A DNA stretch of 64,000 nt, taken from NCBI GenBank assembly GCA_002989075.1, contig PSQN01000005.1:806001-870000 (forward strand), given 5' to 3'. The stretch's first letter is position 1. Every line of letters starts with the position of its first letter. Under the pieces are notes generated by a model. It did not search any database. It was not told the origin of the DNA and was given only the letters and a program-made list of their open reading frames with translations. Below are positions 5,482 to 42,291 of this stretch, piece by piece. A program made the translations under genes and the position numbers. Origin of the DNA: Arthonia radiata. Lineage: Eukaryota > Ascomycota > Arthoniomycetes > Arthoniales > Arthoniaceae.

Positions 5482-7801
5482 ATGATGGCACAAACACCCG
5501 CTATGTCGGAGCGTGGCCGCATCGACCAATCTCGTCATTTCTCAGAACCTCGTTCAGCACCAGCACCGCCGAGCGTTAACCCATCAAGTCAGCCGTCCAT
5601 CGCACACAGAAATGGTTCAGCTCAAGGTCTTCGGCAACCGGGACATCCCTCACACATGACTACGCCAGCTAGCGGCGGCAATCCTGCGCACCTTGCTGCT
5701 CCACCGTCAAGGTCTGGCGCTGTCCATGTACTCAGTAGGGGCCAGGGCAATCCGAGTCCGGCGCCACGAAGTCCTTCTCGCACCCCAAATACGCCCAATC
5801 AGGCCAACGTACCACTGCTTTCCAACAATCACGGCCAGTCCCGGCATCCTCTGCCGAAGAAGCAGACTACGCTCTCCAAGAGTCGTCACTTATGGGTGAA
5901 GCTATCTGCATGGTGGACCTGGGGAGCTCTGCGGGTTGGCATTGAGCATCGCGTGTTTCGCTGCGATCTGCGCGATCTGCGCAAAGCTCCAAGGCCGCCC
6001 TCTCTTCGAATGGAGGTCGTCGATCTCACCTAACGCCACGGTCTCGACTTTGACCACGCTTGCCAAGGCGGGCGTGCTATATGCGGTAGGCCCTACTCAC
6101 AATCTATTGTCAGGTGTTCATTGACGATTTTAGGTCGCGCAAAGCGTCAGTCAGCTCAAATGGGTCTACTACGCTCAACGGCCGAGACGCCTTGCGACCA
6201 TCGATCTCCTCAACAATGCGAGCGAAAATCCGCTAGGAGCCCTCGGCTTCCTCATCCGTGTTCCAGACCGCCTTTCCACACTGCTTGTATCTGTAACATC
6301 AATCACGGTCATCGCTGCCCTCGCGTTCGAGCCCATGGCGCAACAAGTTTTTACCTATCGAGCTGGCTTGACACAAGATCCTGACGGGATTGCTGTCATG
6401 CCAATCGCACAGATCTACGATACAGGTGCCAGCATCGAGAATGGACAGCACCAAAACCACTACAGCTATGACATCGACCCTGGACTGCAAGTCGGAATCT
6501 TAGATGGCTTCTTTGCTGGTTCAAGCCGTGGTGCGGCCGCCTCATTGTCCTTACCGACCCAATGTCCTTCCGGAAACTGTACATGGTCAACCTTTACTAC
6601 TCTTGGAGTCTGCTCGTCCTGTTCCACTGACAATTCAACGGTCAACGTGAGCTGCGATGACAATCTACGCTGCACCTACAAGTGGCCATCCGGCCTTTCC
6701 ACTGGCGCCCGAGCCTCAGCGAACAGCCACGATTTTTGGACATTGCTCAACGTCACGGCGCCTCTGCCACTTTATGTTGCTCAAGAAGATGCCTGGACCG
6801 AGCAAAGTCCAACAGATGTCATTACGAATTTTGCAATGGTGAAATGGAATCCGCCTTTGGACAACGAGGCAGATGAGGCCGGTCCTGACTTTCTGACCGG
6901 CCCTGATGGCAATTACAGGATACCGCCTCCAGACGCAGCATGGCAGTGCAGTCTGAATTGGTGCGCACAGACGTTCGACGATGCGGCAATCAATAATACA
7001 CGGGACTACTACGGTACGCCATCCCGAACGTTTCCCCTGCGTGTCGTCAACTACAGCGATGAAGCTACCGGTGAGGAAGTTAGCGCACCTGGCTTCTGGC
7101 CTCACCACTTCTCAGACTACACACTTGCCATGTTTGAAGCTCAGACTGACGCTTTGGCCGATATACCTAACAAGACCTTCACAATCAACTGGGCCGACGC
7201 CATGGGCATCACCTCTTACTTCAGCAACCTCCTCACTGTCAACCAAACGTATCCTGGCGGGACGACCGGCCTCGGCGTATACCGGACAGACGCTGACGTG
7301 AGCGAGGTCTTCACAAACACGGCCAACCTGTCAGAGCTCATGCAGAACGTCTCGCTTGCAATGAGCAACGCACTGAGACTGAGCGCCAATCCCGACGTCG
7401 GCGTAGCGATAAACCCAGCGGGGCACAACAGCGCGCCGACCAGCGTCAGCGGCACCGCTATGGCTATCACGACCTACGTGGACGTTGAGTGGGGACGGCT
7501 CAGCTTGCCCGCTGCGATCATCGTGCTCGGTGCGCTAGTCCTCGTAGCAGCGATGGTGACTGCTGGCTTGCCCAGTAATTGCGCGACTGACAAGCCCGTG
7601 CTCTGGCGGAGTTCGAACGTGGGTCTGCTGACGCAGGGCTTGCGCAAGCACGAGATGGCTGACCTTGCGTCGGAGCCGTTGGCGCACACGAAAGAAGCGG
7701 GGGAGGAATGGGCGAGAGAAGTTCGTGTGCAACTCAAGAGAGATGAAGACGGCTATCTGAGGTTCGTGCGTTCTAAGCCTGCGGTGCCGGCTCATCCGTA
7801 G
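5482..7801 (+). CDS. DUF3176 membrane protein, frame broken in a G run
   Basis: A fungal DUF3176-type protein of unknown function. A disordered Ser/Pro/Asn-rich N-terminus of about 135 residues is followed by a membrane helix, an SQLKW-type segment, a second helix, a long Cys- and Asn-glycosylation-rich outer domain and a C-terminal helix near the end. One intron fits at 6086-6133 (48 bases). The frame shifts between about 5915 and 5936: the upstream frame gives WWTWGAL, the downstream frame gives CGLALSIACF. Reading the GGGG at 5921-5924 as three Gs yields W-T-W-E followed by the helix, the family pattern, and makes the exon length divisible by three; the product would then be 756 residues. 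The locus is therefore either a recent pseudogene or has a one-base assembly error. A tiny intron could also be proposed but would remove the conserved Trp residues. Confidence 0.8.
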
Positions 7802-27836: not shown

Positions 27837-30311
27837 ATGGACCTCGACGACCCGTCTCTTGCATATGAGATGCAAGAGGAGCTTGGCAGTGAGTGCCTCT
27901 GAACATCAAGAAAATTATTGAGCTGACAAAGCACTAGGTGGAAGCTTCGGAGTCGTATACAAAGCTCGCGAGCGAAGCACCGGCGAGCTTGTCGCAATAA
28001 AACACGTCAGTTCAGACAGGGTCCAATCCTTCGGACGAGCACCGACTGACTGCATGCAGATCGACCTAGACGGCACAGACGACGACATCAAAGACATACA
28101 ACAAGAGATCAGCTGTCTCAGCACATGCTCTAGTCCTTTCGTAACAAAATACAAGACCAGCTTTGTTCGCGGCGTCAAGCTATGGATTGTCATGGAGTTT
28201 CTAGGAGGTGGATCATGCCTAGACATCGTACGTCGTACTCAGCACCTGCGACTGGCGCAGCTAACAGAAGACAGGCAAAAGAAGGTCTCTTCAGTGAAGC
28301 GCACATCGCCATCATCTGCAGGGAGCTGCTCTCAGGGTTGGACTATCTACACAACACCGGCAAGATACATCGCGACATCAAGGCGGCCAACATTCTATTG
28401 TCCAGCAATGGCAGAGTCAAAATCGCAGATTTCGGTGTCGCCGCGCAGTTGACAAGCATGAAGTCGCAACGAATGACGTTCGTGGGCACACCGTACTGGA
28501 TGGCGCCGGAGGTCATACAAGAGAACGGCTACGACTTTAAGGCTGATATCTGGTCGCTCGGGATCACTGCGATGGAGCTTGTCAGTGGGGAGCCTCCAAA
28601 CGCTGATCTCCATCCAATGAAGGCGTTGTTTCACATACCAAAGAGCCCGGCACCAAAGCTTGAGGGTCGCTTTAGCCGCGACTTTAAAGGCTTTGTTGCA
28701 TCATGTCTGGTGAAAGATTGCGACGAGCGACCCACAGCACGGGAGCTCCTGCAACATCGCTTTATCCAAAGAGCTGGAAGAGTGACATTATTGAAAGACT
28801 TAGTAGACGTCAACGACCGCAAGAGAGCAGCAAGCCCGGACAAGAAGGACGTCAAGTATTACGAGGAGACGATGAGGGATATGAACAGGCCGAGCGACGA
28901 CAACGATTGGGTATTTGACACAGTAAAGCCTTCGACTGCCTTTCCGCCTCCTCCGCTGCCTCAGCGTGAGCCTCAAAGTGACACCGAAATCCACACGATG
29001 AAGAAGCGAAAACTGTCGCAGACTTTCACGGCTGAGCCACCGACTGAGATGATGGAGAGACTGGATTTGAACAACGCGAAGCCGCCACAGGAGGTGGAGA
29101 TGACACCGCTGCCACAAAACACAGTGAGGACGATTCAACGAAGGCACTCCGCAGCTGCGACAGGCACGGCAAGAAGAATCACCACCGCGTCTAGAAGACA
29201 GAGCATGTTGATGCCACCTACCCCTGAATCAGGCTCCCCTTCGCCAAACGCCAGTCCGTCACCATCGCCAGTCCGGCGACAGAGCAATGCCAGGAAGCGA
29301 GAGCCCCTCGCGATTGATAGCAGTTTTGGCAATAGCCCGTCGGGTGCTCGTCCTTTCCGCCGCGTTTCAGAGGAGCAGTGTGCATCTGGGTCGATCGCAC
29401 CCATTCTCGAGGACAGCCCGCCCAATCGCGACAACTCTGAGAACATTCCACCGCCAGCAGAAGCAACGACCAGGGAGGCAAAGCTTGGCCGCAAGATCTT
29501 CGCCAAGGTCGTTGACCCAGCTTTCCAAGTAACCTACGCGCACACCGCATCTAGCAGCAGCAGAGAAGCTTTGGCAATGGTGGGCCTCGCATGGAGCAAG
29601 CTGGATGCCATCGACCCAGAGGGAGGTGCAGCCTTCTTCAGAGCCATCGCAGAAAAGCTACAGTTCGAGCCGAAGCTCTCCGCCGCTGTTCTTCCACCAC
29701 GACAACCGCAAACACCCAGCCGTCTCTCATCGACAGCCAGCTCCCAAGCCACGCCAATCCGCACACCATCTGCTACTCCATCACGCATATCCTCAAAAGA
29801 AAACGGCTCACCTCAGAAACCATCTAGCAAGCTCGTCCTCGCACAAAGCAACCCACACCTCCAAAGCCACGCACGTCGACAAAGCAGCCAAGTCACCCTG
29901 GTTAGCGCCACGGGTGAGCAAGCCAGCCCCGCGCCGTCTCGCAGCCCCAGCAAGCTCGAGCGTAGCCCTTCAAAGGCGTCAAACCTCGAAAGAAGTCCTT
30001 CGAAGATCCCTAACCATGAGCGCACGCCATCAAAGCCATCCAACCTCGAACGCACGCCTTCCAAGGCATCGGCACTCGAGCGCAGCCCCTCGAAGATCTC
30101 TGCTTTAGAGCGCAGTCCGTCAAAGGTTGCGGTGGACCGCAGCCCCTCGAAAGCCTCGGCGTTGGATAGGAGCCCGTCAAAGGCACAGAGGCGGGAGTCG
30201 GCGATTCCAGATCTGACCCCGGCGCAGGCAGCGCAGAGTGAGCAGAGTCGGCGGATGAGTGAGTATATGCACAATCGGTGGGTGGAGGGGATGAAGCAGC
30301 GGTGGGGGTAG
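27837..30311 (+). CDS. STE20-family germinal-centre kinase (GCK), possibly Sid1/SepL-like
   Basis: A Ser/Thr protein kinase of the STE20/GCK group, which act in septation, polarity and morphogenesis pathways in fungi. Exons 27837-27888, 27938-28005, 28060-28227 and 28275-30311 give 774 residues; introns are 49, 54 and 47 bases. The catalytic domain starts at the N-terminus, as usual for GCKs: glycine loop GSGSFGVVY, Lys39, HRD with Asp130, DFG 148-150 and the STE20 signature GTPYWMAPE. The tail is long and disordered, with a short conserved-looking helical block (LAWSKLDAIDPEGGAAFF) and an end reading RWVEGMKQRW. Between them nine [ST]PSK units stand in tandem, each a full CDK consensus site. 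Assignment to Sid1/SepL rather than the MST1 or POD6/Kic1 branches is uncertain and needs a tree. Confidence 0.92.
29940..30190 (+). repeat. Coding tandem repeat of [ER/DR][ST]PSK units
   Basis: Nine copies of a six-residue core ERSPSK, ERTPSK or DRSPSK (the first reads SRSPSK), separated by three to five variable residues, in the tail of the GCK kinase. Units are 24-30 bases and have diverged at silent sites, so the array is not brand new. Each core is S/T-P-x-K, the optimal CDK phosphorylation site. Confidence 0.85.
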
Positions 30312-30694
30312 TTGTCACGGAACATGGAAGGGTCGTGAGGGCCGAGGTGAAGCATTCGCACCTGCACAAACCGAACAGAAGATGGGTAGAGAGAGGGAGT
30401 ATATGGGGGGTTGCGAAGATCGCTGAAATGGTGAGTGACGTGGGGTGAAAGGAGGGCAAGGTGGGCTGGATAGGTGGTCATTCACTCCTCTGGCATGGCG
30501 ACGGAAGCATTGTACTCCTCCTGTACGATTTCACGCACAGCGCGGTTGCATAGCGTCATAGATGTGTGTTTCTGATTTATTGCATGGAGCATCTAGCGTT
30601 CAATCATCATTTCTGACATAGCGATCTTTCATTCCCCCCTTATACGTGCACAGTTCCACGCCTCACAAAATTGCTCACATGTACACCTTAACCT
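30312..30694. other. Convergent intergenic stretch
   Basis: 3' ends of the GCK kinase and the first membrane microprotein. Nothing else seen. Confidence 0.4.
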
Positions 30695-31054
30695 CTATGC
30701 TGTCAGTGATGTCGCCAGCGGCGTTGATCGAGATTGGTGCGTCTCGTCAAACCCCATCGCATCCACCTCCCCTTGCTCCTCCCACCACTCCCCATAATCA
30801 ATGACAGGTGTCTCGGGTCCGTCGACAACGTCGACAATAGAGTCTTCCACCTCCAATGCAACATTGACGTGCGGCCTAAGCTTGTGATAGAACATGAAGC
30901 CCGGCAAGAGGTGATCGAGCCTTGTGTAGCAGGTTGAGCCATATACGGCGCAGATGCCCATTTCGAGGAGCCTGAATGCGATGAGGGAGACGTAGACCAT
31001 GAGGAGGTATACGAGGAGGGCGAGGGCGATGCGGAAGCGCAGTGGGAGATGCAT
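30695..31054 (-). CDS. Single-pass membrane microprotein, CxC-T-D-P family, member 1
   Basis: A 119-residue protein: a membrane helix at about 8-28, then the motif C35-x6-C42-x-T44-x2-D47-x3-P51, then an acidic soluble tail with Trp-Trp-Glu. The frame is open further upstream (to 31393), but the ATG at 31054 places the helix at the N-terminus as in the three relatives at 36208, 37080 and 37823. Around the motif it reads MGIC...STC-T-LD-PG, closest to member 3. I do not know this family. The topology is ambiguous (signal anchor with the Cys pair outside, or reversed). The two conserved Cys could form a disulfide or coordinate a metal or cofactor; this is inference. Confidence 0.65.
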   Translation of the reverse strand: MHLPLRFRIALALLVYLLMVYVSLIAFRLLEMGICAVYGSTCYTRLDHLLPGFMFYHKLRPHVNVALEVEDSIVDVVDGPETPVIDYGEWWEEQGEVDAMGFDETHQSRSTPLATSLTA

Positions 31055-31606
31055 GATGGGTGTTGGGCGCACGCTGCTGTGATTGAGGCGATGAGAACTT
31101 TGCAGGGCTGCCTGGATGAGTGGGACTGGATGCTCACTTGGGAGGTCTTGGGCGCGTGATATGTTGACGACGAATGAGCTCAGCTCGAAACGCCTGCTAC
31201 GAACGTACTGGAGATTCAGATTGTCTATTAGGGAGGTTGATGCTAGGTCGCTTCGTTCTTTTGGGAGCACGATGACGATTGTGGTCTTTAGCAAACGCCA
31301 CGAAGTGCCAAGTGTAAGTTTCACTTGTTTCCAGTACCAAGTGGAGGCGACTTCTATCCACCTCGTCGCAGCAAGCTCCACTTGTCTGGTCACTGGCTGT
31401 CATCTCACGAGCCCGCTTTGCAGACGACGGAAGCTTGGGACATCGTCGCCTCACTCATCTTTCACGATGTCGACCGAAATAGCAACACGAGTTGCTTATC
31501 TCTTTTATCTTGCCTACGGTGTTGCCTCTCTTTCTCTGTCTGCATCAGCCAGAGTGATGCACGTCCAGGCTGATCACAGATGCGGCCATGCTTGACACAC
31601 GGAGCC

Positions 31607-31822
31607 ATGGCTCCGCAACCAGTATTCCTGACCATGCTTGCGCTGGTTTATCTTCTTACAATCTCCTCCGCTGGCATCATTGAGCCCGTTGCACCTGTTG
31701 TTGGCAAAATCTCCATCGGAACACAACCTGCATCCTCTTCTGTTCCCTACAATAGCTTTCATCTCCGAGCGCGTCGACGGCTGTTCAATTTCCATGAGCG
31801 CAGTCCAGATCAGAGTCGTTGA
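31607..31822 (+). CDS. Candidate small secreted protein
   Basis: A 71-residue frame whose first 22 residues look like a signal peptide (MAPQPV, hydrophobic core, SSAG). The mature part is about 49 residues without Cys, ending in a basic Arg-rich segment. The ATG context (GAGCCATGG) is good. A minus-strand frame overlaps it. An unseen intron could change the C-terminus. Weakly supported. Confidence 0.28.
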   Translation: MAPQPVFLTMLALVYLLTISSAGIIEPVAPVVGKISIGTQPASSSVPYNSFHLRARRRLFNFHERSPDQSR

Positions 31823-32449
31823 GGGTCGCACGCACTGTAGCTCGATCACTGTCGTATGCAGTTGCTCAGCTTCTATGCAAATTGTCGCTGTGAAGGACAT
31901 GTACATTTTCATGTTCAATCGTGTAAGAGTTGAAACTGTAACAATATGAGTCTGTACGCAGTCCGATAATCACGTGATACCATCATCTATCGGCGGCCCG
32001 TGCTTTGCTTGGCGCAACTCAAGGATCGATTTTTGACCGTAAAAAACTTATCTTCACCTCTTCGAAGCTGGGAAAGGCCAGCGACGCCAAAACAGGCCCT
32101 GAAAAGAAAGTCTTTGACGATGTTTGAATGCTCTGCGTGTTCAACTCAAGCATAGCCGGTGTATGTACGTATTTACAGCATCCATGAGGACTGAGCCCGT
32201 TTTTCGTAATGGCAAAGGTACAGAGACTCCTGAGCAGGTGCTGAAAAGCAAGGTTGTGGCTATGCTGAGCTGCTGCTTGTATCAGAAGTACCTATTATGT
32301 AACTAATTCAGGGGCGACCAAGTTAAATAGCGATGTACTTCATTGCGTACGCAGACAAAGGGCTTCCGATGCTAATGAACTTAGTTCTACCGACCTTCTC
32401 CAGCGTACACATTGACCCTTGGACGCCGACTGAAGTATATACCAAACAA

Positions 32450-32565
32450 GATGAATTCAGAACGACATGAAACCCAAACGGCATAGACATCGACTGACAA
32501 GAACATCGAATAACATGAACACCGAACGACTTGAACATCGAATAATTTGAACATCAAACAGAACA
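32450..32565. repeat. Imperfect tandem repeat, unit about 16 bases
   Basis: Five to six diverged copies resembling TTGAACATCGAATAA or ATGAACACCGAACGA, ending just past the stop codon of the RNase gene. It probably lies in that gene's 3' untranslated region. Confidence 0.5.
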
Positions 32566-32574
32566 AGCGCTTTG

Positions 32575-33312
32575 TCAAGTGCATAGCTGGAAGCGTTCCG
32601 CCCCTTTGCCATCCGCATTCTCCTGCACATGCGTCATGACACCGCAATACCTGGCCTCATCATCGATCTTCGCAAACACGATACGCATCGGCGTCTGGCC
32701 GGCTTGGTCACTGGCCTTTGTATTCTTCTTCCACGTCTTCTTGGCGTTATCGCCAAAAATTGGGTACTCGTAGAGCTTGTCGTTGTTCCGGTCGCAGTCG
32801 TTATTCTTGAATTCGATGTTGTCTTTGTTTTGGAATTTGTGGGGATCACTGTCGGCCGTCAGATGCAGAAAGAATAAAAAGAAAAAGAAAAGCGTGCTGT
32901 TCCTTAAGCGATGAGCTACAAGCAAAGTGACTTACCCACTCTTTCCCTTGTCGAAGCTGTCCTTCTTGCCTATATCCTCCAAGGCGTTGTTGGTCATCTC
33001 GAATTTGGCACGATCAGTCGCAACAGGACGGCTGTAGGTTTTGTCTGGATCGTTTTTGTTCTTTTTGCTGGAGGTGGGCCTGCAGGTGACGGTGCCCTGT
33101 GTTGGACGTTAGAGTGGTAATGGAAGGCAATAGCGCCGGCTTCGTGCATTTACCGGTGCTCGTGGGATCAGTGCCGGGTCTGCAGACTCTGTCGGCACAG
33201 GCGCGACTGCGCGAGCGACGTTGTCTGTCTGTGTTGGTTGCGCTAACGGGCCAGCCATAGCGCTGCCAGCCAACACGGCGAGTGAGATGATGGAAATGAT
33301 ATGCATACTCAA
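32575..33312 (-). CDS. Secreted N1/T1-family guanyl-specific ribonuclease
   Basis: A secreted RNase that cleaves RNA after G through a 2',3'-cyclic phosphate. Three exons (33312-33154, 33096-32936, 32848-32575; introns 57 and 87 bases) give 197 residues. A signal peptide covers about residues 1-20 and is followed by a propeptide-like stretch ending near PRAP. The catalytic set is complete: His110 in DPHKF, Glu134 in YEYPI, Arg162 in MRIVF and His180 in MTH. Cys57, 125, 175 and 196 could form two disulfides. Compared with RNase T1 (104 residues) the mature domain has long Lys-rich loops, and the CDR and CG-[IV]-x-[AT]H stretches recall ribotoxins, so it stands between the two groups. It looks intact. 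Its neighbours are the membrane microprotein family. Confidence 0.88.
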
Positions 33313-34533
33313 GAAAATCGAAAACAGCGAGCGGTTGACAGTGTTTCTCTATCAGGAATGGGGGTGGAAAGGGTCTAGAGTGAGAGAATTGAACTGAACA
33401 ATGTTCACAGTCCTATGGGTATGCGGTGTTGCCCTCTTTATAATAAGACTACTGTCAAGTATGGACTGACCACGGCAGCATCCAGCCCGCCGTAATGATG
33501 ATCTCTCATGGCCACCGTCCACGCGCTGTATCGCTTTGTGGCCTCGCAAGATTGTTTCTCTTTTCTGAAATCGTTGAGTGGTGCTGATGCCATTATCGGG
33601 GTCCTGATACTCTGCCTCCGGAAACGCTCTGCCTGCAGGAACGCCTAACATGGAACGCGTAACTGGAATGCTATAAGCCAAGGCAGATGAAACGCTCCCA
33701 CAGCCGTGGGTGGAAGTTTTCAGCTCCGATGGCCTATCCATCCAGGTCTGTGTGGCATTCACTCAGCGTTCAACCCAATTTATTCTCCATCGAAGGCGTT
33801 TGGCGAGAGAGAAAACGAACGCTGACGATGCTCACTTCTTCTTGAGATTACCCAGCTTGACAGTTTATGCTGTCCTGAGAGGTGTGCGTATTAGTGAGCT
33901 TCGAATCGATTCGTGATGCAAGCGCTTTCGATGACATCAGTCACGGGAGCTGCATTTCTCCTTCATTGAGAAACATTGAGGGAAGGCTCCAATGGGAGTG
34001 CCCAAACATATCTTCTATGCGTGACATTGATCCCAAGATGGCGTAATCGGTGCAACGCTGGATGTCCGTGTTTCGGGAGGGGACGATCCATGTCAATTTA
34101 GGATTCCAAGCGAACAAATCCCGATGGTTGCCTTCTAGGCGCAATCCGTGTAGTGGAATTGCGAAACATTGCCTGCGCAGTGTGCAGGCTACGAGTGCTT
34201 GTTCAATGTAAACTTGGGTACTTCTCGGTCAGCATAGGCTGGGTTCAGAAAGGCTCTGTTCGGTCGCGAGATGTCACGCTGCTCCGTAGTTCCCTCTGCC
34301 TATCGAGCAGGTCTCGATCGAAGCGAGACGCGTAAAGCGCACCCGTGGCACGTAGGTACGTACCTGTGAGTGGAGAAGCCGGAAACAGGTACAGGTTCCG
34401 CCCGTTCGCCGTTTGCCCAGACCTCACCATTCTTTTCGCCTCGCGCAGCTATATGTGGGAAACCCTCTTGATTCGCTTTACTAACCAAAGGTTTGCACAC
34501 ATTTGCAAACAAAGCATTAGCAGATCAACGATC
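33313..34533. other. Divergent intergenic stretch
   Basis: Promoter region between the RNase gene and the DUF3632-like gene. The minus-strand frame at 33352-33762 shows no protein features and is not called. Confidence 0.4.
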
Positions 34534-35850
34534 ATGGCGGACGTCCTTCCCTTCCGATTGGTCGAAGACACCTACTTCCTCATCAGTGATGAGGAGACTG
34601 AGCAAATGCGCGATTGGATCCTCGCAGTCGTTGGAGGCTCGGAGACTTCAGCGTCAGCCGCGCAATTGATCACGAACTGGATTGTCGAGGAAGCAAACAC
34701 GGATTCAGAGTCGGTTGTCAAGTATCGAAATAAGTCGATCGCCGGCCAGGGCGGCAACGACGACGAAGACGAATTTAAGCATCGTCGACCGCAACCTGCG
34801 CTCTGCAGAGAGCTCGTCATACTCCAAGCTGGCAGTGCCGCTGCATCGTTGCCTCCGCATGATGTGGGTAAGTAGAAGAGCGTCCATCTTTTCTGTTCTG
34901 TTCCTTTATTGCCCTCAACTTGAGCGCTCCACGGGATTCCTTACTTCGCACTCTTGCTAAATATCGCCGTCTGCTGTTCAGAACACATCAATTGACATGG
35001 AATCCGCACTTTATGTCCTGGACCCTCTATTGCGTTTGTCACGCTTTCGCCGTCAGAAAGGCGCACGCGACGTTCATAACTAGCTTTTGTAATTTGCCGT
35101 ACAGACCATATAGTACTGACAACCTGCGTACAGGTCACAACAGGCTCATCAACCTGTTCCATAACTTCGCGGCTTTCCCACCCAAGAAAGTCCCATCGTG
35201 CACGACCACCGACGCCACCGGCCTTTCAAACCGGGAGAACGTTTGGGGCACCTCGGATCACACGCAGGACATGGGTCAGCAGTTCTACGAGCTTGCCGAC
35301 TGCAACGGAAAGAGTACGTATCCGCTTGTCTCAAGCTCACTCAGATTACACCCAAGCAATTGCTAACGACAAGAAATCAGGCACTTACAACGGAATCGAC
35401 TCCGGCATCGACCAACCCGGAAGCACCGAGCAGCAACGCTGGCGGAACCTGCAAAGTTTCCTCGCTCGGCTGTGCTCGGACGATTCCGGGTTGTGGGACT
35501 GCTCGATGTACTGCGCGCTGTTCGAGCTTGAACGCGAGCTACATTTCTCGCAACGGGAGAAGGCACGTTCGAAAGAGTTACGGGCGGGCCACGCTATCGC
35601 AGCGGCTCAGTGGATTGTGCCGGCAGGGATCGGGGAGTGGGTTTACGCGCAGTGCAGGATGCGGGCAATGCCAAGCGGAGATGATAGGAAGCGGCGGCCG
35701 TGGCATGATATGTGGACGATGGAGAGCTGGAAGGTGTGGCTGAAGGCGTTTGAGGAGGTTGCGGATGGTGAGGGGAATGATGCTGCGGCTCGTGAGACTG
35801 CTGGACGCGCTGCAGCGCGGATGAAGGGGATTGAGGGGGAGCAGTCTTGA
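34534..35850 (+). CDS. DUF3632-like fungal protein
   Basis: A soluble, mostly helical protein of unknown function. Exons 34534-34867, 35134-35313 and 35381-35850 give 327 residues. The C-terminal half has the pattern seen in DUF3632 proteins: a Trp-containing NLQSFLARLC segment, a WDCSMYCALFELERELH helix, AAQWIVPAG and a final W-x2-W-x3-F block with an Ala/Arg-rich helix. Intron 1 is 266 bases and part of it is open in the downstream frame, so an alternative exon inside it is possible; intron 2 is 67 bases with a GCTAAC branch-like site. The ATG at 34534 is chosen over the in-frame 34345 start because the upstream residues look like leader. The family assignment is by pattern memory and moderate. 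Confidence 0.72.
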
Positions 35851-36207
35851 GCGTCGGATTGGCTGTAGAAGTGAAAACAGATGGCCGTACGGAGTGTTGC
35901 GTGTTGTCAAAGACATTGTTTTGGTAAGGTGGTGCGCGCGAAGAAGGCATCATATGCGCTTTCACGCAGCCAACAGGAGGCAGAAGGCCAAGAAGACGTG
36001 TCATATCATCTTCATTCCATGCTTGGGTATTACCAGGCTGATCTGTCAGCCATCTCGAGAGGTCGTCGTTCGTAACCTTGTTTTCCGCCTCATGCTATGC
36101 CCATCACTCTTGACCCTCATTTTGTGGTCTCATGCACTGCTTCATTGTCCCCACTTCAGGCCTCGCTCCGCGCTTTCATGTCACACTCGACTCCCGCCGT
36201 GTAACAA
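35851..36207. other. Convergent intergenic stretch
   Basis: Between the 3' ends of the DUF3632-like gene and microprotein member 2. Nothing else seen. Confidence 0.4.
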
Positions 36208-36525
36208 CTAGTCGACCTCCTCTCCGTTCCAATTCGTCGCAGCACAACCCATGAACTCCTGCTCGACCTGGAGCTTGACCGTGGACTTCATGCACTGAAG
36301 CGAGGCGTGTGCGGAAGCTGAGGGCGGAACCTTGGAGTATGTCGGGGTCGGCATGAGGTAGTCTGGAGTCGTGCCGCAGGGGGCTGGCACAGTAGCGCAG
36401 TTAGCTTTTGTCGCCAGCTGCATGATGATGAGGACAGCCATGCCAGCAATAAGTCCGCCGACGAGACCAGCGAGCACCAGCTTGGGTTTGTCGGAGGAGA
36501 CGTCGTTGATGACTGGCACGCGCAT
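36208..36525 (-). CDS. Single-pass membrane microprotein, CxC-T-D-P family, member 2
   Basis: A 105-residue protein. A short polar N-terminus with Lys13 and Lys15 precedes a Gly/Ala-rich membrane helix (about 16-37), then the family motif C43-x6-C50-x-T52-x2-D55-x3-P59. It is the most divergent member: Pro replaces the usual Thr before the second Cys and the usual Leu before Asp. The tail has two further Cys (about 78 and 93) and ends acidic. It may thus carry an additional disulfide not found in the others. Single exon, transcribed in the same direction as members 1 and 3. Function unknown. Confidence 0.7.
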   Translation of the reverse strand: MRVPVINDVSSDKPKLVLAGLVGGLIAGMAVLIIMQLATKANCATVPAPCGTTPDYLMPTPTYSKVPPSASAHASLQCMKSTVKLQVEQEFMGCAATNWNGEEVD

Positions 36526-37079
36526 CTTGGTGCTGTGAGTCTCGGGTGAAATGGTTGGAATCGTTGTTTTGGAGATCGTGATCTGGGTGTTGTTCGGGTC
36601 TGATGATACTGGTACTGACTCCTGAGAGCTCGAGGTGAATGTCGTGTTGTTTTGATAGCCTCGTGAAGTTCAATATGGCTTCGCGAGAGTGTTCGCGAGG
36701 TTGAAGAACCTCGGAAGAGCCGTTTTGGTTCAAGAGCGAACGTGAGCTATGCTGAGCTATGGTAAGCTGCAGCTGTTAGGCAGCTGCTGTGGATGCGAAT
36801 GGTCAGGTGACTTCGAGAGCGTAGCTTTGTTGAGCTGTGCACACTCATCAGGTGAGAGTGGTTTCTGCTCGCAATTGCAGTTGTTTACTGCCAGCCTTCG
36901 TTTATTCAAGCGAGCCTGCATCATATGAGCTCGCACTTCTGATCGGCATGCAAGTTTATGCATCATAATCGGGTCGGTAAACTTGCATTCGCGTATTCCT
37001 TTAAAGCTCGGCAGCCCATTGCGCATTCACGTCTGCTCCCACTTCTTCGAAACGCAAGTACGACCAGTCTTCTCAGCAC
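36526..37079. other. Intergenic stretch
   Basis: Upstream region of microprotein member 2, containing short imperfect repeats (GCTATG and GCTGCTG-type). No gene supported. Confidence 0.35.
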
Positions 37080-37433
37080 TTACAGCACCGCCCTCGGGGG
37101 GATCTGTAGCTCCTCCATGAACACAGGTCGCTGCTTGACTCCCAAGTCCGCATTCGACGGAGCCTTCATCTTACAGCTCTCGTAATACCGTAAAGGCCGG
37201 CCCTTGTAAGTCTTGATGCCATCTTGTTCTACGCATGGGGCTACTCGCCCTGTGTGACCTACCACACCGGGAATCATGTCGTCGAGTATCGTGTCACATG
37301 TGCTGGGATGTACACTGCAGATGCCCATTCGGTATGCTTTGCCAACGACAAGGGTGATGAGTTTGAGCAAGATGATGAGAGCGAGAATGCCGATGATTGT
37401 GTTGCGAACGATTTTGAGGTGTGAGTTGATCAT
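37080..37433 (-). CDS. Single-pass membrane microprotein, CxC-T-D-P family, member 3
   Basis: A 117-residue single-exon protein. The membrane helix is at about 12-31, flanked by basic residues. The motif is C39-x6-C46-x-T48-x2-D51-x3-P55, read as MGIC...STC-T-LD-PG; this is nearly identical in its key positions to member 1 although the tails differ entirely. The tail contains two more Cys and several Lys. It lies head to head with member 4, with 389 bases between the start codons, so the two may share a promoter. Function unknown. Confidence 0.75.
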   Translation of the reverse strand: MINSHLKIVRNTIIGILALIILLKLITLVVGKAYRMGICSVHPSTCDTILDDMIPGVVGHTGRVAPCVEQDGIKTYKGRPLRYYESCKMKAPSNADLGVKQRPVFMEELQIPPRAVL

Positions 37434-37822
37434 GGTACCTGTGCCTTGTTCGGACTTCGAGGTTTGGAGTTGTTAGTCGAACAAATACTGATTTGTGATT
37501 TTTCAAATGTCAATGGGTTTGTGAGTCTGTTTGAAGTTGTCATGAGACAAACGGTCGAAGCTGCAGACTTCTGCGTTCAATCGCCACGCACTTCGAGGTG
37601 AGAGCTGACTATGTGCACTGCGAACTGAAGACGCGTTGCTCTACCTCGTCCTGACTTCGATACACCTTCTGCCTAAGTCTGAGGAATTGTTAAGTAGTGG
37701 CTCTGTTGTTTGCTGTCTCTTAGCGGATTCAATTCAACGCTCCAATTTTCTCAATCCACACCTCAACTCACATCTCAGCTGGCAGTCACGCTACAAGGTC
37801 GGCAGAATCAGCAAACGCAGAG
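37434..37822. promoter_or_regulatory. Divergent promoter between microproteins 3 and 4
   Basis: 389 bases separate the ATG of member 3 (minus strand) from that of member 4 (plus strand). The interval has no coding frame of its own that I can support. Shared regulation is likely from geometry alone; I did not find a convincing binding site. Confidence 0.45.
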
Positions 37823-38128
37823 ATGCCTTGCAGCAGTCTCAGCATTTACATCATCATCTTCTCCCTTCTCTGGGCTATCACTCATATTCTGGCAAAACAC
37901 GGCAGCTGCACGCTTCTTCCAGCAACCTGTGGCACAAAGCTCGATTACATTTTCCCCAGCGAGGGCTGGTATGCTGGAATGCCATTCCGGCCGGGGGTTG
38001 GCTGGGGCGGCTGGGACGACAACGACTATGATGCGACACCTCCCAGGCACCCCAGCAGTTTCGAGCAGGGTGCCGGTGTCACGGAGATCCAGGTAGCCAC
38101 AATGGAGAGTGGTGACGATAGGATGTGA
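37823..38128 (+). CDS. Single-pass membrane microprotein, CxC-T-D-P family, member 4
   Basis: A 101-residue single-exon protein and the only member on the plus strand. It starts with a membrane helix (about 5-24) that could serve as signal anchor. The motif follows directly: C29-x6-C36-x-T38-x2-D41-x3-P45, read as HGSC...ATC-T-LD-PS. The rest is a Gly/Trp/Asp-rich segment with three Trp, then a Pro-rich acidic tail. The other members lack the Gly/Trp part. Its stop lies 280 bases from the 3' end of the carboxylesterase gene, which runs the other way. Function unknown. Confidence 0.72.
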   Translation: MPCSSLSIYIIIFSLLWAITHILAKHGSCTLLPATCGTKLDYIFPSEGWYAGMPFRPGVGWGGWDDNDYDATPPRHPSSFEQGAGVTEIQVATMESGDDRM

Positions 38129-38409
38129 TGGGGTTAGCAGATGAAGGATCATCGCGCTCATACAATGTTCATCTTTTGAGTATGTCCATGTCGAGAATAG
38201 AGTTTTATAAGGATTCAAGAGACCACATGAATGTGCCAATCGCGCTGAGATTATTAAAAGTTCTTCTCATGCTTGCGCGTTATTCAGGTGATAAGGATCA
38301 CGTTAAACAACTTACCTTTGTGAAGCATGGCAGTACACGCCACGAAAGAAAACGAGAAACCCAGTTGTATGTTCTGTCAGTTCATATGATTTATAGTCGT
38401 CCGCAAGCG

Positions 38410-40077
38410 TTATGCCAAGAGCTCACGGCTAATCGAGTTGATGAATGCGATTCCCTCTTCTCTGAACGTGTCAGGTTCCACAAAGCTGCCGTTGGCGTTG
38501 AGCACCATATTCGTAGGCTGATCAATCGTGTACTGTGGCCATGTAGGCAGGCTGGTGGGACCGTTCCCGCTTTCTATACCGTTTGGATTGTGAGTGCCAA
38601 CGAAATTGCCGTAAGCCTTGCCGATACTCAAACTGAGGTCTTTGTAGCTTTGATACTGCGGCAGCGGGCCAAGCGCTCCGCTGATGTTCTGAAACGAAAA
38701 GACGACATTGACGAAATGGTAGACTGCCACTGGTGTTTGGATGGCTGAGGCGTTCCAGTACGGCGTATCAAAACGATACGAGTAGACATCGCTGATACCA
38801 CCGTTCACGAACTCCTCTGCAGTCTTCCGACGTTGAGCAATGATGACAATGTCACCACCAATGGCAGCTCCTCTGCGGTATTCAAGGCCTCGAGATCTTG
38901 ATGCATACGTATTGTTGGTGTGGTCGTTGTATGGCGGGCTTATGGATGGATCATCAGGATACAGGTCCAGGATGTTATTGATACTGGGTGGCGTCAGAGC
39001 ATAGTTGCGCCAGTATGTCAGTGTGTTGAAGAGGTCTTGAGTCGTATTCGCGCCTATCGTGTTTGACACGTCAAAGCTGATGCCTTCATCAGTGTTTGCG
39101 CCGATCAGCAAAGGCACATGCACAAACTGGCCATTCGCGGCAAGATTGCTTGGATAATCTGTCAGGAAAGTGCCGTCCAGGATCGGATTCCATACCACCG
39201 TATATCTTGCGTTGAAGAGCTGCTCTGACGTGAGACTGCGTAGGCACGCAAGACTTGCTGGGTCCGTCCAAGTGGTAGGACATCCAACGGTACGCGTCAA
39301 GTTTTCCGCAGCTACATTGTAGAATGGCAGGGGCTCGAGGTTGGTGCCGACCGGGCCGCCTGACTCCAGTATGGCAGCAGAGTATAGCCCGTCGTCACGG
39401 CCTCCATGGGAATGCAGGTGCAGGCCGATCGATTGCGCTCCTGCGCTTTCACCCCACACAGTCACGCGCTGTGGATCGCCACCGAATGCTGCAATGTTCT
39501 CCTGTACCCATTGCAGGGCCAGACGCTGGTCAAGCAGACCGGCGTTGGAGGAGCCTTCGGCAAGGATCTGCGGTGTAGCTAAGAAGCCCCAAACTCCAAG
39601 CCTATAATTGATGCTCACGCCAATGAAGGGATTGTCGGTAGATGTCGAAGTGTTGACAATGCCAGAGATATTGTACTGCGGATCAGCTGTGCTTCCAGCG
39701 GTCAAGCCGCCGCCGTAGATCCAAACGAGCACCGGGAGACTCAGATTGTCATACCCGTGAGGTCGCACCACATTTAGGGTGAGGCAATCTTCGCTCAGGT
39801 TGAAGTTACTGTTATATTGGTAGCAACTGTAGCCATATCGAGTGGCGTCGCGAACGCCGTCATAAGATCCATTGAGGGTCTGAGGTGCTCTGAAGCGCAG
39901 ATTGCCTAGAGGAGGCTGTGCGTACGGGATGTCCAAGAAAAAGTCCTGGTTCCAAATGGGCGAGGACACACCCTCAAGCGTGCCATTGAGCACATCAACC
40001 TGAGGTCCGCTCGCGTCTTGTGCTGCAGCTAGGACGACGGCCAAGTATACAGCGAACAACACCTGGAGAAACCCCAT
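38410..40077 (-). CDS. Secreted type-B carboxylesterase/lipase
   Basis: An alpha/beta-hydrolase of the cholinesterase/carboxylesterase family that hydrolyses ester bonds outside the cell. One exon, 555 residues, typical length. A signal peptide covers about residues 1-19. The catalytic triad is complete: Ser211 in GESAG, Glu331 in TDEG and His454 in VYHF. The oxyanion-hole Gly triplet is at 122-124 and the EDCLTLN family signature at about 96-102. Many N-x-S/T sites indicate glycosylation. The His region (AVYHFVN) differs from the usual HGSE/HGAE of cholinesterases, so substrate range may be unusual. Native substrate unknown; the neighbouring P450 is on the same strand but about 500 bases away, so a joint pathway is only possible. 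Confidence 0.93.
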   Translation of the reverse strand: MGFLQVLFAVYLAVVLAAAQDASGPQVDVLNGTLEGVSSPIWNQDFFLDIPYAQPPLGNLRFRAPQTLNGSYDGVRDATRYGYSCYQYNSNFNLSEDCLTLNVVRPHGYDNLSLPVLVWIYGGGLTAGSTADPQYNISGIVNTSTSTDNPFIGVSINYRLGVWGFLATPQILAEGSSNAGLLDQRLALQWVQENIAAFGGDPQRVTVWGESAGAQSIGLHLHSHGGRDDGLYSAAILESGGPVGTNLEPLPFYNVAAENLTRTVGCPTTWTDPASLACLRSLTSEQLFNARYTVVWNPILDGTFLTDYPSNLAANGQFVHVPLLIGANTDEGISFDVSNTIGANTTQDLFNTLTYWRNYALTPPSINNILDLYPDDPSISPPYNDHTNNTYASRSRGLEYRRGAAIGGDIVIIAQRRKTAEEFVNGGISDVYSYRFDTPYWNASAIQTPVAVYHFVNVVFSFQNISGALGPLPQYQSYKDLSLSIGKAYGNFVGTHNPNGIESGNGPTSLPTWPQYTIDQPTNMVLNANGSFVEPDTFREEGIAFINSISRELLA

Positions 40078-40607
40078 GCTGGCATGTGTTGAGGAACATT
40101 GAAAGCTGCATTTTCATTGCAGTAACTGGCATCATACTACCCATGCGCGTTGCTTGTATGCCGATGCGGTGCCGACAAAAGAACCAAAGCCATCCTTGGT
40201 TGGTTCGTGGGGAATCTCTAGGCTAAAAGAGGCATGTCGACTTGTTTCTGTGTTAGGAGAGATCAGGACGTCATTTGAAATTCACTGTGGTCACTCGTGC
40301 GGTTTCCGTCCGTCGCGATCGAGATTGTGCTAAGTGGTCGATTCTGGAAAGGCGTTTGCTGGGGTTTCGCGAAACTTGCAGAGAGGCACAGAGGACATTA
40401 TTTGGGGGAAGGGCATGAACCACGCGACGTTATACGAGTCAGGTGGGTCTAAAACGGGATCTAGGGGCTAGTGGTCCCCCTCATCTCTTATTGGGGTCTG
40501 TGCTCTGGGGGTTTATATGGCATGCGGACGTTCGCCCAACTGACGGTCATCGCGGCCACTGATCAATTCCCCAACACTGCCTTCGAACGTGAGACGTAGG
40601 AAATTGA
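40078..40607. other. Intergenic stretch
   Basis: Promoter of the carboxylesterase and 3' end of the P450. No further gene. Confidence 0.4.
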
Positions 40608-42291
40608 TCACCCCTCGGCCGGCACCCACACGTTTATTCCCCCATTGTCCTTGACCTGAGAGTTAAACCACTCGTACTTCTCGATTCTATTGCTTACTGT
40701 CGTCATGCCCTCCAACACTCCACTGCATACCAACGCCTCTGTAGCCCATAGCAACTCCTGATGCGCTAGGTTTCTTGCAATGCACTGCCGCGTTCCCGCA
40801 CCGAAAGGGATCATGTTGGCATTCATGCGTCTCTGATCGATAGGAGAGGCTTCCAGCCAACGCTCAGGGTGGAAGTTGAACGGATTTGCGAAGCAGCTGG
40901 GCTCATTGTGCAAGCTGTAGCTCTGGCAGCCGACAACTGTGTCCGGTGGTATACTATGGCCCAAAATCTCAACGCCATGACTTCCTTTCGGTACCAAACG
41001 AGCCAGCCTGGTGGGATTCGCAAGGCCAAGCCTCAAGCCTTCTTTGACCGTTGCATCTAGCATCGGCTTGTCGCCGCCATTCGTCTGCGCCGTCAGCTCA
41101 CCCTTCAGTCTTTCCATCCAACCCGGGTTGCGAATCAAATGAAAGCAGAGCGTCGCAAGAGTCATCCCCGTACTGTCGGTACCAGCGAAGATCAGGTCTT
41201 TCAGCTGTGTGTTGACTTCAGACCGCGAGATACCGGCGTTGAACAGTAGTCGAGACTGGTACGTGTCTTCGCCTTCCTTTGCAGCTGAGATGCGTTCGGC
41301 GCCGTACTTGTCAACCAGGTTTGAAGAGTGTGCCTCAGTGCCGTTTGGAAAAAGCCGTTCCACAACACCGGCTACGACATTGAACAGCGTCGGCGGGAGG
41401 AGGAAGAAACGGCCAACAGTGACGTACGAATCGACGAAGGGACTAGCTATTGATCTCGTACCTACGAGGAAGTGTGACATTTCCTTCTTGGAGGCTGAAA
41501 GTAGACCGTCTTCGTCCAGACTGCCGTAGGCATGCCCATAGAGATACCCAGTGACAACATCAGTCGCCAAGCGTCTGCATTCGTCTGAGATATCGACTTT
41601 GTGCGCCTTGTCACTAAAGATATAGACATCAGCACCATGCTACCCGCAAAATAAACGAGTCCGCACACCAGACTTCAAACAAGAATTTGAGGTGATTACG
41701 TGCGAACACATTCCCACCCCATAAAGAGAACGTCGCTCGAATGCCATGCACTTACCTCCTTGCAGCGTTGCTCCGGTGTTGTCTCAATCGTTCAATAAAT
41801 TTATCGACGAGCTTACGACAGACACCTTCGGCGCTCACGAAACTTTCCCGAACGCGACTAGGAGCGAACATCGGCACCACCGCCTTGGCCCTCACCGCTC
41901 TATGCTCATGGTCTCTTGTTGAGAAAATGGTTGCATGACCGTCAATGTCGAAGTTGCTGTAGAACGCGGGTTTGGGCAGACCGCCGTTCGTCACGTAGAT
42001 CTGGGTAATTGGGTTCACTTCTTCGGGGTCGTTGGTCGTGTTGCTGATGGAGAGGTGATTCGGGGCGATACGAACGATCGAGGAATTGTATTTGAGGTGC
42101 TGGTTGCGAATAGCGGATGCCTCGGTGCCAAAGTACGCGTGGTACCAGAGCCAGAGCGGACTGAGCTTTGCGATAAAAGGCCCTGGGTAAGGATGAAGAT
42201 AGGCGCGCCTTAACAGACGTCCGAGATGGAAGACGGTGAGTGCCACGACCGCAGCAACGACGGCGCTTGTAGGCCCAACGTGCACATCCAT
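40608..42291 (-). CDS. Cytochrome P450 monooxygenase
   Basis: A haem-thiolate monooxygenase anchored in the ER membrane by its N-terminal helix (about 8-28). Two exons, 42291-41756 and 41613-40608, joined by a 142-base intron with GTAAGT donor and TTTAG acceptor; 513 residues, the normal length. Family landmarks in order: PGPFIAK after the anchor, the I-helix oxygen-binding FAGTDST, the ExxR motif (KEGLRLG), PERW and the haem loop FGAGTRQC with Cys456. The residue two after the haem Cys is Ala instead of the common Gly, which occurs in some fungal P450s. The start is set at the last ATG before the anchor. Substrate cannot be predicted; the set of landmarks fits the fungal CYP groups acting on small lipophilic molecules. 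Confidence 0.93.

Follow-up and report, generated by a model that had tools for sequence, protein, structure and literature searches.

Four short genes clustered in a single 64-kb stretch of DNA (the window; contig 11, positions 806001-870000, of a 33.5-Mb genome of 16 contigs) form a real, local family with a strict signature, and this family is unnamed in Pfam, the PDB and the protein database. Their products, which we refer to as P1 to P4, are microproteins with one strong hydrophobic stretch each, followed closely by a short conserved block. The preliminary description of the window had proposed four frames of 101-119 residues, and the translations, read from ATG to stop, agree:

30695..31054 (-), P1, microprotein of 119 aa, ATG to stop confirmed by translation
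36208..36525 (-), P2, microprotein of 105 aa, ATG to stop confirmed by translation
37080..37433 (-), P3, microprotein of 117 aa, ATG to stop confirmed by translation
37823..38128 (+), P4, microprotein of 101 aa, ATG to stop confirmed by translation
37434..37822, intergenic stretch of 389 bp between P3 and P4, which lie head-to-head

The stretch between the divergent P3 and P4 could act as a shared promoter; the inverted repeats I5 and I6 (15-16 nt), which connect the start of the P3 frame with the 5' side of P4, are possibly due to chance. The proteins contain 2, 4, 4 and 3 cysteines (P1 to P4), with just two past the helix in both P1 and P4, and their tails carry net charges of -11 (the acidic tail of P1), -2, +4 and -7.

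Signature, relatedness and coding potential

All four proteins contain the 17-residue signature C-x6-C-x-T-x2-D-x3-P, in which the second Cys lies seven residues after the first, Thr and Asp two and five residues after the second Cys, and Pro four residues after Asp, exactly as first described. The first Cys is residue 35, 43, 39 and 29 in P1, P2, P3 and P4, respectively, so that the P1 motif spans C35-P51. P2 is the most divergent copy, with A-N-C and a P preceding the Asp. A regular-expression search of the six frames of the 64 kb finds the exact motif in four places, all within P1-P4, as compared with 59 simulated windows with no motif and one with a single motif among 60 order-2 Markov simulations (mean 0.017). 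Because the motif had been picked after inspection, two kinds of control were used, namely these simulated windows and a motif-blind comparison of frames. For the latter, 136 ATG frames from the window, between 70 and 136 aa long and in some cases forming the ends of longer ones, were scored pairwise on their best ungapped 19 residues, which gave 9,106 pairs once overlapping pairs had been dropped. P1-P3 ranks first (score 61), P4-P2 second (59), P4-P1 fourth (51) and P4-P3 fifth (50), followed by P1-P2 at rank 72 (35) and P2-P3 at rank 129 (33). Pairs outside the family reach a score of 53, one of them at rank 3, so that a single score of about 50 is not decisive by itself. P2, second with P4 and much lower with P1 and P3, its weakest links in the family, is therefore tied in mainly through P4.

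Comparisons with shuffled sequences place the similarity within the block. In each of the six pairs, the 17-residue block outscores all 400 shuffles, whereas the tails after the motif behave like shuffled sequence in all six (0.19-0.87 of 400 shuffles score equally well) and the parts ahead of it are equally unremarkable (0.06-0.94). This bears out the earlier impression that the proteins are nearly unrelated outside the block. In protein searches of the whole genome, which score only the best candidates from a first look, P1 retrieves P3, its closest copy, at E 4.8e-5 and P3 retrieves P1 at 7.3e-5; with E up to 10, neither retrieves P2 or P4, P2 retrieves only itself, and P4 retrieves none of the other three. 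Judged by their sequences, P1-P4 are one paralogous family whose similarity among the four exceeds chance, and the motif counts, pair ranks and shuffles concur with the proposal of a single local family with a conserved block and divergent tails. Comparison among the paralogues suggests that the block may be under selection.

Could these frames instead have arisen by chance or decay, with an old duplicated segment in common, and not be genes in use? The unrelated tails and the lack of a detected homologue beyond this genome would suit this explanation, which we nevertheless consider very unlikely, as all four frames are intact, their codon use is coding-like, and conservation is limited to the protein motif, with codons that have changed synonymously. 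Nine frames of the window served to train a codon model, which scores P1-P4 at 0.142, 0.161, 0.157 and 0.134; the MCM5 exon (0.141) and the esterase (0.238), given for comparison, belong to the training set. The score is a coarse one, because a Pfam-supported DUF3632 frame outside the training set reaches just 0.020. Among 86 ATG frames between 85 and 136 aa long, the four take ranks 9-12 by this score. Each of their start codons is preceded by a purine at -3, and of the five fixed residues, four (the second Cys, Thr, Asp and Pro) are encoded by synonymous codons that vary from copy to copy, the first Cys being encoded by TGC throughout. Further evidence against mere duplicated DNA is that no listed DNA repeat of at least 14 nt joins two of the blocks. 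Taken together, codon use and synonymous differences favour P1-P4 being genes.

Relatives within and beyond the genome

The 33.5-Mb genome was searched with P1-P4 in full, with two natural pieces and with one pattern; these searches, which are of limited sensitivity and cover members with the motif in its unrelaxed form, yielded no convincing fifth member. The pattern C-x-T-x-[F/L/I/M/V]-D-x3-P occurs in 49 places, compared with 45 for its backward control. Three of these are P1, P3 and P4, the P before the D barring P2 from a match, and inspection of the other 46 (30 as loci and 16 more) revealed a correctly spaced upstream Cys in two, L029 and L033. In addition, a 49-residue profile of the four blocks was run on six frames of 58 sequences (the window, 53 earlier loci and 40 kb of flanks; 266,078 bases with overlaps), where only P1-P4 and their copies in overlapping loci scored above threshold; the profile having been built from P1-P4, their own scores prove nothing. 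L029, the top match outside the family, reached 12.2 bits (E 0.033) and was not accepted. Nor was L033 (contig 10, near 103728-103756, minus strand), which has the correct motif spacing and a hydrophobic run ahead of it, with a profile match of 4.6 bits (E 7.7); its motif match is a probable chance occurrence. On contig 2, P4 has a weak match (E 0.00997 for the complete protein and 0.00117 for a 35-residue piece) that was rejected: it is interrupted by a TGA and retains the two Cys and the Pro without the motif's Thr and Asp, and the same stretch is open in a different frame that is enzyme-like by eye. The absence of the motif elsewhere had been named beforehand as an observation that would speak against a gene family. 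Within the genome the motif is indeed nearly confined to the locus, as would be expected of a young local family and equally of non-genic sequence, and it is the codons and synonymous differences that favour genes.

Beyond the genome, the family matches nothing with a name in Pfam, the PDB or the protein database, as had been supposed. No Pfam model exceeds its curated cut-off for any of P1-P4; P2, P3 and P4 are without any match, and the sole match of P1, DUF234, reaches 14.7 bits where the cut-off is 22.5. A profile search of the PDB gave nothing better than E 0.97, a single match to cytochrome b that was taken as chance. The protein database (5.8 billion) was searched with the four-protein alignment and, among the single proteins, with P3 (786 + 8 candidates), and nothing was returned at E<=10; as each search uses at most 100 words and short genes often go unannotated, this result means that no annotated relative was found and is not to be taken as true absence. 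The database does contain near relatives. The MCM5 of Coniocarpon cinnabarinum (Arthoniales, Arthoniomycetes) matches the MCM5 exon of the window at 492/520 residues (95%), the highest identity among the best 120 of 8,000 matches, and the differences are scattered along the alignment. The genome is thus probably that of an arthoniomycete, perhaps a lichen-forming one. In viral contigs, nine stretches fit the pattern and none was confirmed as a relative, and Rfam has no family within 30000-39000.

Membrane topology and a proposed mechanism

Hydropathy agrees with the single hydrophobic stretch per protein that had been reported. The best 19-residue windows have means of 2.69, 2.67, 2.87 and 2.15 (P1-P4) and stop 7, 8, 7 and 4 residues ahead of the first Cys, that of P1 comprising residues 9-27. 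Windows above 1.6 jointly span 30-37 residues in P1-P3 and 26 in P4, whose stretch is the shortest of the four. A structure model of P1, based on a four-row alignment (mean pLDDT 58.4, pTM 0.31), is confident in a helix of residues 5-37 only and so speaks neither for nor against a loop in the block. Net charges within at most 15 residues before and after the helix are +2/0 for P1, +1/+1 for P2, +2/+2 for P3 and 0/+2 for P4, a weak bias that favours an inside N-terminus in P1 alone and leaves topology undecided by charges.

We propose, at what we judge to be about even chances, that P1-P4 are coding, lineage-specific and signal-anchored paralogues that dock or assemble by way of a shared disulfide loop, with tails that are free to vary. 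According to this model, local amplification would have produced the four paralogues in the interval bounded by a protein-kinase gene and a carboxylesterase gene. The N-terminal helix would be kept as a signal anchor in a membrane of the secretory pathway; the short N-terminus would lie on the inner side, and the juxtamembrane block would face the lumen or the exterior. There, a disulfide between the two cysteines may form a C-x6-C loop next to the membrane, with T, D and P fixing the turn that follows. This small loop would be the shared docking or assembly element, while the freely diverging tails, unlike in charge and cysteines, would set the partner.

The hydropathy of all four proteins and the helix in the P1 model are consistent with a retained helix, and the tests run are also compatible with a signal peptide that is cut off. 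In the latter case P1-P4 would be small secreted proteins, with mature, effector-like peptides of about 60-85 residues and 2-4 cysteines directed towards an algal partner, microbes or grazers. As is typical of such proteins, P1-P4 are small, clustered and apparently lineage-restricted, with a hydrophobic stretch near the start; the stretch of P4 is the shortest, and the same island includes a gene that, by eye, probably encodes a signal peptide. The hydrophobic lengths given above, in particular those of P1-P3, are however long for a signal peptide, and the P1 model forms a single helix of 33 residues, which leaves secretion a possible and somewhat doubtful explanation. Most small secreted proteins still await characterisation, as stated in PMC4759460.

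The proposed anchor could also have the opposite orientation, with a cytosolic block whose two juxtamembrane cysteines are palmitoylation sites for a membrane domain and with the tail as the cytosolic working part. The distance of the first Cys from the best hydrophobic window (4-8 residues past it) is the usual position of such sites, and the charges flanking the helix leave the topology unsettled; lipidation, in contrast, would require neither a strict C-x6-C spacing nor an invariant T, D and P, and we regard this arrangement as unlikely.

Genomic neighbourhood and comparison with known systems

Lineage-specific genes appear to form a small island in the cluster region, flanked by conserved ones, with the following neighbours:

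28134-30308, frame of a protein kinase gene that ends left of the cluster
32575-33306 (-), ribotoxin-like gene between P1 and P2 (Pfam Ribonuclease, E 2.9e-8; hirsutellin A, E 1.9e-17)
34345-35847 (+), DUF3632 gene between P1 and P2, probably of two exons
38413-40113, carboxylesterase, right of the cluster
40611-41639, P450, right of the cluster

The gene at 32575-33306 is small, with apparent splicing and, by eye, a likely signal peptide, and its Ribonuclease and hirsutellin A matches both come from a single last-exon piece; by sequence, it resembles a ribotoxin gene, here in a probable lichen-group fungus. A genome search with the Ribonuclease model found one place, on contig 3, and missed the window's own ribonuclease-like gene, so that its power for weak members is limited. 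The DUF3632 match covers 35293-35847 (E 3.4e-10), and 34345-34872, which has no Pfam match of its own above the cut-off, is probably the first part of the same gene; in the genome, DUF3632 is found at five places at E<=0.01, four of them over the cut-off and two of the five with internal stops. Elsewhere in the window, 6134-7798 (+) matches DUF3176 (E 3.6e-11), a domain that the fungal allorecognition protein CWR-2 also carries.

The position of the ribotoxin-like gene between P1 and P2 is the basis for a further idea, namely that P1-P4 serve this locus by protecting the fungus from its own secreted ribonuclease or by helping to traffic it, in which case the divergent tails would track the ribonuclease or its targets. 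As a joint claim we consider this highly improbable. If true, this would be a toxin-and-guard cluster in a eukaryote, here a probable lichen-group fungus, and among the leads from this locus the ribotoxin-like gene alone could make the family more significant. Together with the DUF3632 gene, this neighbour makes a comparison of the island worthwhile.

Fungi often have lineage-specific families of this sort, and P1-P4 alone settle no long-standing question. They are a clean case of a family of short genes, easily overlooked in annotation, in which, with no confident fold and with unrelated tails, a 17-residue block is still kept in four copies. Should Arthoniales relatives carry the family, it would provide a handle on the origin and diversification of membrane microproteins in a little-studied group.

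UstYa-type DUF3328 proteins are fungal proteins with one N-terminal membrane helix, a feature that they have in common with P1-P4; the DUF3328 Pfam model is absent from the matches of P1-P4 at E up to 10, a range in which matches above about 0.1 are mostly filtered. The cwr-1/cwr-2 locus and other fungal allorecognition loci consist of linked, diverging genes for cell-surface or membrane proteins, CWR-1 being a monooxygenase. P1-P4 are likewise encoded by linked and diverging genes, whereas the proteins of those loci are larger and belong to other families. A surface, stress or self-recognition role had been suggested for P1-P4, and nothing found speaks for recognition in particular. The closest general likeness is to the small secreted and orphan families of fungi, which are similarly short, apparently lineage-restricted, clustered, fast-diverging and poor in cysteines. 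In contrast to these families, P1-P4 more likely retain their membrane helix, and their conserved part is one short juxtamembrane block.
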